DNA from: Chloroflexota bacterium
GTDB taxonomy: Bacteria > Chloroflexota > Dehalococcoidia > Lucifugimonadales > UBA3495
NCBI GenBank assembly: GCA_028875055.1
Contig: JAPPGG010000060.1
Coordinates: forward strand, 1-50,903
Length of the DNA: 50,903 nt
Reading direction: 5' to 3'
This document shows positions 33,245-34,889 of this stretch, piece after piece; position 1 is the stretch's first letter, and every line of letters begins with the position of its first letter. The notes under the pieces are model-generated. The model searched no databases. It worked only from the letters and a program-made list of their open reading frames with translations, and was not told the DNA's origin. Both the position numbers and the translations under genes were made by a program.

Positions 33245-33296
33245 AGTCTCAATAAGCGACGGCGATTTACCTTTGCAATTTTGCTGAATTGAGACT
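33245..33296. promoter_or_regulatory. 9-bp inverted repeat, possible operator or attenuator
   Basis: AGTCTCAAT (33245-33253) is the exact complement of ATTGAGACT (33288-33296), 34 bases apart, followed by a run of T. It lies just upstream of the -35 box of the His-rich gene, so it could be a binding site or the end of a leader transcript. Confidence 0.35.
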
Positions 33297-33303
33297 TTTT
33301 GCC

Positions 33304-33333
33304 TTGACAAGCGATTTCTGGCCGTGTTCAAAT
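33304..33333 (+). promoter_or_regulatory. sigma70-type promoter for the His-rich protein gene
   Basis: A perfect -35 TTGACA (33304-33309) is 18 bp from TCAAAT (33328-33333), which matches four of six -10 bases. The leader to the start codon is about 58 bases. Confidence 0.55.
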
Positions 33334-33398
33334 ATTAGTCACTCAGCGGGCTATGAGGCATGTCAGCAGCGTAGTACCGGGCTTTTTGGAGGCATCAG

Positions 33399-33638
33399 AT
33401 GCAGCATCACGATATCCACGAGTGTGACACCCACGAGCATCACGGCGACGAACCCGGCCACGTCCACGACATTCACGAGTGCGACGGCCACGAGCACCAC
33501 GCTGAAGCTCACGACCACGACATCCACGAGTGTGACACCCACGAGCATCACGGCGACGAGCCGGGCCACGTGCACGACATTCACGAATGCGACGGCCACG
33601 AGCATCACGCCCATGACCACGCCGGTCACGTTCATTAG
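33399..33638 (+). CDS. 79-residue His/Cys/acidic repeat protein, probable metal-binding
   Basis: This tiny protein is made almost wholly of His, Asp, Glu, Gly and Ala with four Cys; I count 28 His in 79 residues and no Lys or Arg. The motif DIHECD[T/G]HEHH occurs four times (residues 5-15, 24-34, 41-51, 60-70), arranged as two copies of a 31-residue unit 36 residues apart. This composition would bind several Zn, Ni or Cu ions. It has no signal peptide or membrane segment, so a cytoplasmic metal buffer or chaperone is inferred. The ATG at 33399 follows GGAGGC. It has its own promoter and terminator and converges on a zinc-type CDF exporter. I do not recognise a named family. Confidence 0.85.
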   Translation: MQHHDIHECDTHEHHGDEPGHVHDIHECDGHEHHAEAHDHDIHECDTHEHHGDEPGHVHDIHECDGHEHHAHDHAGHVH

Positions 33639-33664
33639 ACCGGGCTCAGCCAGGCTGAAAAGCG

Positions 33665-33696
33665 CCCCGCTGCTGAATGAAGCAGCGGGGTTTTTT
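33665..33696 (+). terminator. Rho-independent terminator
   Basis: A perfect 10-bp stem, CCCCGCTGCT (33665-33674) and AGCAGCGGGG (33681-33690), with a 6-base loop is followed directly by six T. It ends the His-rich gene 27 bp after its stop. Confidence 0.93.
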
Positions 33697-33743
33697 CGTG
33701 GAAAAAAGGAAGCCTCGGGCCAGGCTTTTCCCGCAGGGTCGGG

Positions 33744-34889
33744 TCAATCCCGGGCTCTGGCTAACAGGTGGCCGACGTGGTGGTCTTCGGTGCAGTCTGC
33801 GGTGGTATGCTCCAGCTGGATGGTGACATGACCGATCTGGTACTTGTTGTGCAGCATGTCCTTCATTTCGCTGGTCACAGCGTCCAGGTCACCGGCATAT
33901 TCCCGGTCCATCAGTATGTGGGCGGTAAAGGCCACGTTGCCCTGGGTAATGGTCCAGACGTGGACGTCATGGATCAGGGTTACCCCTTCAAACTCCTCCA
34001 GGTCGTGGCAGAGGGCGTAAACGTCCACATGCTCCGGCGCGCCCTCCAGCAGTACGTTGAGGATGCTGACAATGAGCTTTCGGGTGTTGTACACGATCAG
34101 GAAGGCGATGACCACACTGAGAATGGGGTCCGCGATCTGCCAGTTAAAGGCCATGATGAGGACGGCGGAGATGATAACGCCCACCGAACCGAGGAGGTCG
34201 GCCAGCACGTGCTGGAAGGCCCCTTCCACGTTCATGCTTTCTCCGGATGAGCGGTGGAGAATCCAGGCGGCCACCACGTTGACCAGAAAGCCGCCGATAC
34301 CCACCAGCAGCACGGGCAACCCGATTACCTCACTTTCGGGGAAGCGGATGCGGTGGTAGGCCTCGAAAAGGATCCAGCCGGCAATCAGCCACAGGGTAAA
34401 GGTGTTGGCCAGGGCTGCCAGGATTTCCGTACGGTGGAAGCCGAAGGTGCGCTCGACGGAGGCTTCGCGCTGCCCGATCCAGATGGCCACCAGGGCCATG
34501 ACGATGGCGGCGGCGTCGGTGAGCATGTGACCGGCATCGGCCAGCAGGGCCAGGCTGCCGGATATCAGGCCGCCAATGACCTCGGCGACCATATAGGTTG
34601 ATATGAGGATCAGGGCGAGCCAGAGGCTCCTCTTGCTGGCGCTCCTGAAGTCATGGGAGTGATCGTGGTGGCCGTGTCCATGGCCTCCGTGGTCGTGGCC
34701 GGCGTGGGAGTCGTGGTCGTGGGCCCCTTCCGCCGGGTGGTCGTGGGCCGCGTGGTCATGGCCGGCGTGGGCGTCGTGGTCGTGGCCGGCGTGGGCGTCG
34801 TGGTCGTGGGCCCCTTCAGCCGCGTGGTCGTGGGCTGCGTGGTCATGGCCGGCGTGGGCGTCGTGGTCGTGGCCTTCGTTGTCTCGCAT
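33744..34889 (-). CDS. CDF-family zinc-type cation exporter with long His-rich N-terminus
   Basis: This 381-residue membrane exporter of the cation diffusion facilitator family expels divalent metal from the cytoplasm in exchange for protons. The first 75 or so residues are a His-Asp repeat (HDHAAHDH.AEGAHDHD.HAG). Six helices follow. The metal site is HxxxD in ADAGHMLTD and again in FQHVLADLLG, the His-Asp form typical of zinc-specific ZitB/ZnT members. A cytoplasmic domain with HVWTITQGNVAFTAHI ends the protein, and extra His/Cys residues at the tail (TADCTEDHH) may also bind metal. The ATG at 34889 is set by GGGGGTGG. It is convergent with the His-rich small protein. Confidence 0.93.
   Translation of the reverse strand: MRDNEGHDHDAHAGHDHAAHDHAAEGAHDHDAHAGHDHDAHAGHDHAAHDHPAEGAHDHDSHAGHDHGGHGHGHHDHSHDFRSASKRSLWLALILISTYMVAEVIGGLISGSLALLADAGHMLTDAAAIVMALVAIWIGQREASVERTFGFHRTEILAALANTFTLWLIAGWILFEAYHRIRFPESEVIGLPVLLVGIGGFLVNVVAAWILHRSSGESMNVEGAFQHVLADLLGSVGVIISAVLIMAFNWQIADPILSVVIAFLIVYNTRKLIVSILNVLLEGAPEHVDVYALCHDLEEFEGVTLIHDVHVWTITQGNVAFTAHILMDREYAGDLDAVTSEMKDMLHNKYQIGHVTIQLEHTTADCTEDHHVGHLLARARD

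Follow-up and report, generated by a model that had tools for sequence, protein, structure and literature searches.

We propose that a His- and Cys-rich microprotein of 79 residues, encoded in the window (the whole 50,903-nt stretch of DNA under analysis), is a cytoplasmic and probably unstructured protein that buffers or stores zinc(II) within a zinc-homeostasis gene set, a reading to which we assign a probability of about 0.7. This gene set would consist of the microprotein and a CDF exporter, joined in relatives by ZnuABC/AztABC-type uptake genes and Fur-family regulators. What renders a zinc-buffering role probable is that zinc import or export genes nearly always adjoin the microprotein gene, and that its motif module is occasionally fused to the exporter itself.

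The microprotein and its paired motif

The microprotein ORF runs from ATG to TAG on the forward strand (33399-33638), is backed by translation, homologues, and purifying selection, and specifies the product MQHHDIHECDTHEHHGDEPGHVHDIHECDGHEHHAEAHDHDIHECDTHEHHGDEPGHVHDIHECDGHEHHAHDHAGHVH. It contains 28 His, 4 Cys, 23 Asp/Glu, and no Lys or Arg, in exact agreement with the length, the His and Cys counts, and the lack of basic residues given by an earlier, sequence-only reading of this DNA. The two 31-residue units with four motifs described there were equally evident: residues 5-35 (33411-33503) and 41-71 (33519-33611) are identical as protein, flank a 5-residue linker that sets a period of 36, and carry HECDxHEHH at 33417-33443 and 33474-33500 in the first unit and at 33525-33551 and 33582-33608 in the second. 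Codon differences between the units are synonymous without exception. The nearest two Cys lie at least 17 residues apart, with no CC pair, and the source genome holds a single copy of the gene.

Family-wide, 264 copies of HxCxxHxHH in 59 proteins read H-E-C-D-x-H-E-H-H, with the E, D, and E positions all but invariant, the constancy of H and C being set by the search pattern itself. Motifs occur in even numbers per protein (2, 4, 6, 8, or 10), and the two proteins scored with three each have a degenerate fourth; the window gene, a short leaderless ORF with four motifs, follows the same rule. These even copy numbers point to the motif pair as the unit, and we infer that pairing reflects either growth of the array or a metal site made by the pair. 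No leader or membrane segment is visible in the family proteins, whose M-x-x-H start directly precedes the first motif, which argues for a cytoplasmic location. AlphaFold produced no fold (pLDDT 44), a result uninformative beyond fitting metal-induced structure.

A periplasmic or surface collector that supplies an uptake system with metal would fit several Acidimicrobiia, where ZnuA-ZnuB-type genes precede the microprotein gene, but the leaderless M-x-x-H start speaks against it, as do the exporter fusions described below, in which the module occupies the N-terminus of the CDF, a cytosolic part according to established topology. We consider such a collector very improbable.

Conservation and signals around the gene

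That the ORF is a real gene, as previously proposed, is borne out by homologues in all four genus mates and by codon changes among relatives that are overwhelmingly synonymous. Across ten ortholog pairs pN/pS ranged from 0.02 to 0.23, which evidences purifying selection. These codon data also rule out a tandem DNA repeat left open by accident in place of a gene. The repetitive sequence, the openness of other frames, and the existence of one RecQ gene holding the module as an in-frame insertion would suit such an accident; besides the pN/pS values, however, a Shine-Dalgarno-like site upstream of 57 of the 60 homologues, the single copy in the source genome, and the fixed neighborhood render its probability next to nil.

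In the window, the ribosome site anticipated by the sequence-only reading corresponds to GGAGG (33388-33392, forward strand), 6 nt 5' of the ATG. A terminator scan likewise recovered the perfect Rho-independent terminator, an 11-pair perfect hairpin followed by TTTTTT (33664-33691, forward strand). The claim of an own TTGACA promoter survived only in part: a TTGACA does occur at 33304-33309, but no −10 box is better than the poor TCAAAT (33328-33333, spacer of 18), and a consensus promoter scan made no call for this pair, so that the forward-strand stretch 33304-33333 figures here as a possible promoter. TTGAC was found in the −130 to −30 zone of 18/60 homologues, against 5.4 expected.

Further upstream, GTCTCAA (33246-33252) and TTGAGAC (33289-33295) are inverted candidate operator half-sites, together spanning 33246-33295 with no strand assigned. 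Upstream of Dehalococcoidia homologues, the density of TTGAKAC half-sites is 19 times that in the remaining locus sequence, and 13 of 45 loci contain such sites versus 1.8 expected by shuffling. A fixed-spacing operator, GTMTCAAT-N2-10-ATYGAKAC, was not found in the five genus genomes, and half-sites around the ZnuA and second CDF loci of the source genome are sparse and poorly placed. We therefore treat them as a lead on regulation of the microprotein gene. An Rfam search of the window found nothing.

Distribution and hosts of the family

The sequence-only reading had called for a homologue search in related genomes, which uncovered a conserved family. Within the genus, the gene recurs in all four remaining genomes, in two at full length, in one as a short copy with two motifs, and in one interrupted by an assembly gap. 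At the level of the order, 32/250 genomes from ~14 families matched, one match being the RecQ insertion, while in a phylum-wide sample of 400 genomes the window's own was the sole match (0/399 others). A GTDB scan with one genome per species yielded 60 loci across two phyla, namely in Dehalococcoidia/SAR202/Chloroflexota and in Acidimicrobiia, the latter set including six loci that protein sequence and gene order would place there. Counts given below for 61 loci add the window to these 60. No microprotein relatives were detected in viral contigs or in plasmids, the plasmid search being weakened by its low-complexity filter. In the nearest relative (L007/L050, G003:C29), the tandem repeat of the microprotein gene is broken by a stretch of N where the assembly has a gap; this gene may thus be dropped or shortened in short-read assemblies.

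The RecQ case lies on a complete chromosome (L100, OY282371.1, 5995-8169; the same site as L015 and L107), where an insert of ~34 residues brings two HECDxHEHH motifs in frame into the helicase. At that position, the helicase of a genus mate (G102, L108) forms a short loop. The L100 RecQ carries further extra segments, and its genome has no free-standing microprotein copy above threshold.

By their record titles, at least 23 of the 60 loci are attributable to sponge-derived MAG sets. The isolate codes RHO, IRC, APA, and COS agree with the host names Rhopaloeides, Ircinia, Aplysina, and Coscinoderma in a seven-sponge study (PMC8163846), and the MPM/MPN records fit a study of Aplysina aerophoba (PMC5649159), which names MPMM00000000. 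The family is thus at least in part one of sponge symbionts, and a restriction to sponges is suggested.

The convergent CDF exporter

Facing the microprotein gene, 109 nt downstream, is a convergent gene on the reverse strand (33744-34889) for a ZitB/ZnT-like CDF exporter. Its product combines PF01545 (E=1.3e-42) with a C-terminal ZT_dimer domain (PF16916, E=3e-11), both over cut-off, and an HxxxD motif in each of two membrane helices, TM2 (GHMLTD) and TM5 (QHVLAD), the full set of features of a CDF transporter. Translation further revealed a His/Asp-rich N-terminal tail (34650-34889, reverse strand), devoid of the HECD motif in the window's copy. The CDF identity, the tail, and the HxxxD motifs agree with the earlier description of a facing CDF with a His-Asp repeat and a zinc-type His-Asp site. 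Among NCBIfam models, TIGR01297 scored over cut-off, whereas the best equivalog model, ZitB (NF002923), reached 255.9 bits against a curated cut-off of 408 bits, and the Co/Ni exporter DmeF model matched weakly. Judged by these scores, the exporter is ZitB-like and no ZitB equivalog. Its nearest relatives with a solved structure are ZnT8, ZnT4, and ZnT3. With no more than two CDF genes in the 3.75 Mb of the source genome, the likelihood that one of them adjoins the microprotein gene by chance is well below 1%.

Zinc transporter genes recur beside the microprotein gene

We surveyed the neighborhoods of the 61 loci by clustering adjacent ORFs and by tblastn with the recurrent families. A CDF exporter gene lies within ~6 kb in 44/61 loci, and a CDF or ZnuA/ZnuB-type gene is near in 52/61; the tabulation of metal genes next to homologues that the sequence-only reading had recommended thus turned out in favor of the link. 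ZnuA-, ZnuB-, or ZnuC-like genes accompany 20 and Fur-family genes 12 of the 61 loci, and the searched zinc transporter genes are absent from nine, one of which is the RecQ insertion. Pfam confirmed the neighbor families ABC-3, ZnuA, and FUR. The best NCBIfam matches were AztB for the uptake permease, just under cut-off, and AztC for the binding protein, also under cut-off; the ATPase came nearest to a manganese model, and some ABC matches are equally near Mn and Zn models.

The arrangement varies among lineages. The CDF gene is convergent in the window and in the Acidimicrobiia RHO group and co-directional in many Dehalococcoidia, while in other Acidimicrobiia the microprotein gene lies downstream of ZnuA-ZnuB-type genes. 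In L062, L084, and L087, the N-terminal tail of the CDF itself holds two or three HECDxHEHH motifs together with long DDH/GHD repeats. No other single observation ties the microprotein to the exporter as strongly as these fusions do.

The source genome also encodes, at L119 (G000:C14:134721-137228) and L118 (G000:C8:7109-9514), ZnuA-type proteins in open frames of more than 800 aa, in which a long insert splits the ZnuA match; at L119, on C14, an ABC ATPase and a permease come next.

At L053, L057, L060, L062, L063, and L093 (Acidimicrobiia-type) and at L054, L067, L073, L089, L094, L096, L102, and L104 (Dehalococcoidia), the microprotein gene adjoins a STAS/response regulator-SpoIIE phosphatase operon, in which an anti-sigma-type ATPase, a Peripla_BP_6 binding protein, and a sensor kinase are often encoded as well. 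Its recurrence in the two phyla gives the impression of a relocated cassette. A CDF tree, moderately supported and built without an outgroup, gathers its five Acidimicrobiia-type proteins in one group among Dehalococcoidia lineages. Transfer from one phylum to the other is likely.

L054 and L104 share their flanking order with L067, L073, L089, and L096 and lack the CDF gene that in these sister loci sits between the microprotein gene and a DinB-like ORF cluster (c15).

The metal

Zinc is our best guess for the metal bound by the microprotein, given the HxxxD of the CDF, its likeness to ZnT8, ZnT4, and ZnT3, and the ZnuA-type uptake genes alongside. It has been established that a TM5 HxxxD distinguishes Zn and Fe/Zn CDFs from Mn-CDFs, which have DxxxD, and that Zn-CDFs usually bear His-rich regions (PMC1868760).

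The metal may still be nickel, cobalt, copper, or cadmium, all of which are also bound by His/Cys ligands. A buffer for one of these (Ni, Co, Cu, or Cd), beside zinc transporters for reasons of general metal handling, would accord with the binding of several metals by His/Cys-rich proteins in vitro, as documented for Hpn with nickel, copper, zinc, and bismuth (PMC4671568), and with the weak DmeF match. The recurrence of ZnuA/ZnuB-type uptake genes and the zinc-type CDF run counter to it, and we regard this alternative as unlikely.

A model for zinc buffering

The potential ligands in each HECDxHEHH motif are one Cys and four His (H-x-C-x2-H-x-H-H). Pairwise occurrence of the motifs makes the pair the likely working unit, in which Cys and His ligands may close one or more zinc sites. 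So loaded, the microprotein would hold free cytosolic zinc low and act as an exchangeable store, from which the metal could be released to enzymes or to the CDF for export; the His-rich tail of the CDF may be a comparable metal collector. We infer both metal binding by the microprotein and transfer to the exporter.

The three exporter fusions make it plausible that metal is handed directly to the CDF, but this is unlikely to be the sole role, since the gene is kept beside uptake genes where no CDF is found, and in L054/L104. The sequence-only reading had envisaged a buffer or chaperone that hands ions to the exporter; homologues, the frequency of nearby CDF genes, and the fusions sustain the core of this proposal, but not hand-over as an obligatory step. 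A stricter version, a dedicated exporter chaperone that would dock in its zinc-loaded form on the His-rich tail at the CDF N-terminus and there pass on its metal, draws on the CDF being the commonest neighbor and on the occurrence of the HECDxHEHH module both free and as a CDF tail. Against it, six Acidimicrobiia-type loci have the gene after ZnuA-ZnuB-type genes with no CDF in the sequence around, L054 and L104 retain the gene without the CDF of their sister loci, and E. coli ZitB needed neither terminal region for function (PMC1868760). Such a dedicated chaperone is conceivable but rather doubtful. More speculative still, and distinctly improbable in our estimate, is a split metal relay in which soluble microprotein and exporter tail share the HECDxHEHH code, as the common motif in three loci would suggest: zinc would bridge paired motifs in trans, docking would take place only at zinc excess, and the cassette would have spread between two sponge-dwelling phyla.

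If zinc buffering is indeed the function, the question of whether a dedicated bacterial cytosolic zinc carrier feeds a CDF exporter becomes testable in a microprotein that purifying selection has preserved among Dehalococcoidia and Acidimicrobiia known without culture, many of them from sponges. The HECDxHEHH module would also offer a compact peptide for metal-binding chemistry.

Comparison with known systems

The microprotein has no match in Pfam, NCBIfam, PHROGs, PDB, or the open full-text literature, in keeping with the earlier reading, which knew of no named family with such a repeat. Hpn and Hpn-2 (Hpn-like) of gastric Helicobacter resemble it as small, cytoplasmic, lineage-restricted His-rich metal sequestration proteins, and the very high His content of 28/79 residues is Hpn-like. 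Some Hpn-type proteins also have short tandem repeats, such as the 11 GEH3 motifs in H. mustelae reported in the part of PMC4671568 consulted, which records no CDF or ZnuABC linkage for Hpn. Hpn, however, belongs to a nickel and urease context and has its Cys in CC pairs and no HECDxHEHH repeat, whereas the microprotein lacks CC pairs and its homologues in the GTDB-wide scan all fall in Chloroflexota and Acidimicrobiia-type MAGs, with none in Helicobacter.

Bacterial metallothioneins of the SmtA/BmtA type are likewise small metal buffers with Cys and His, but they are Cys-rich, in contrast to 4 Cys versus 28 His in the microprotein, whose widely spaced Cys form no CxC/CxxC clusters and which matches no metallothionein model in Pfam or NCBIfam. 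The His-rich termini and loops of zinc CDFs (ZitB, ZnT, and MTP1) are similar His/Asp-rich cytosolic metal collectors; the HECDxHEHH module differs in existing also as a free-standing gene and in its invariant Cys per motif. AztD, the zinc chaperone of AztABC operons, likewise adds a zinc-binding protein to the locus of an AztABC-type importer; as a folded periplasmic protein, it differs in kind from a leaderless repeat microprotein. By the sequence tests made, the microprotein would thus work like Hpn or a metallothionein and belong to neither. It probably represents a lineage-restricted, previously unnamed family of His/Cys zinc buffers with a strict nine-residue metal code, which occurs both as a free protein and as a tail of the exporter.
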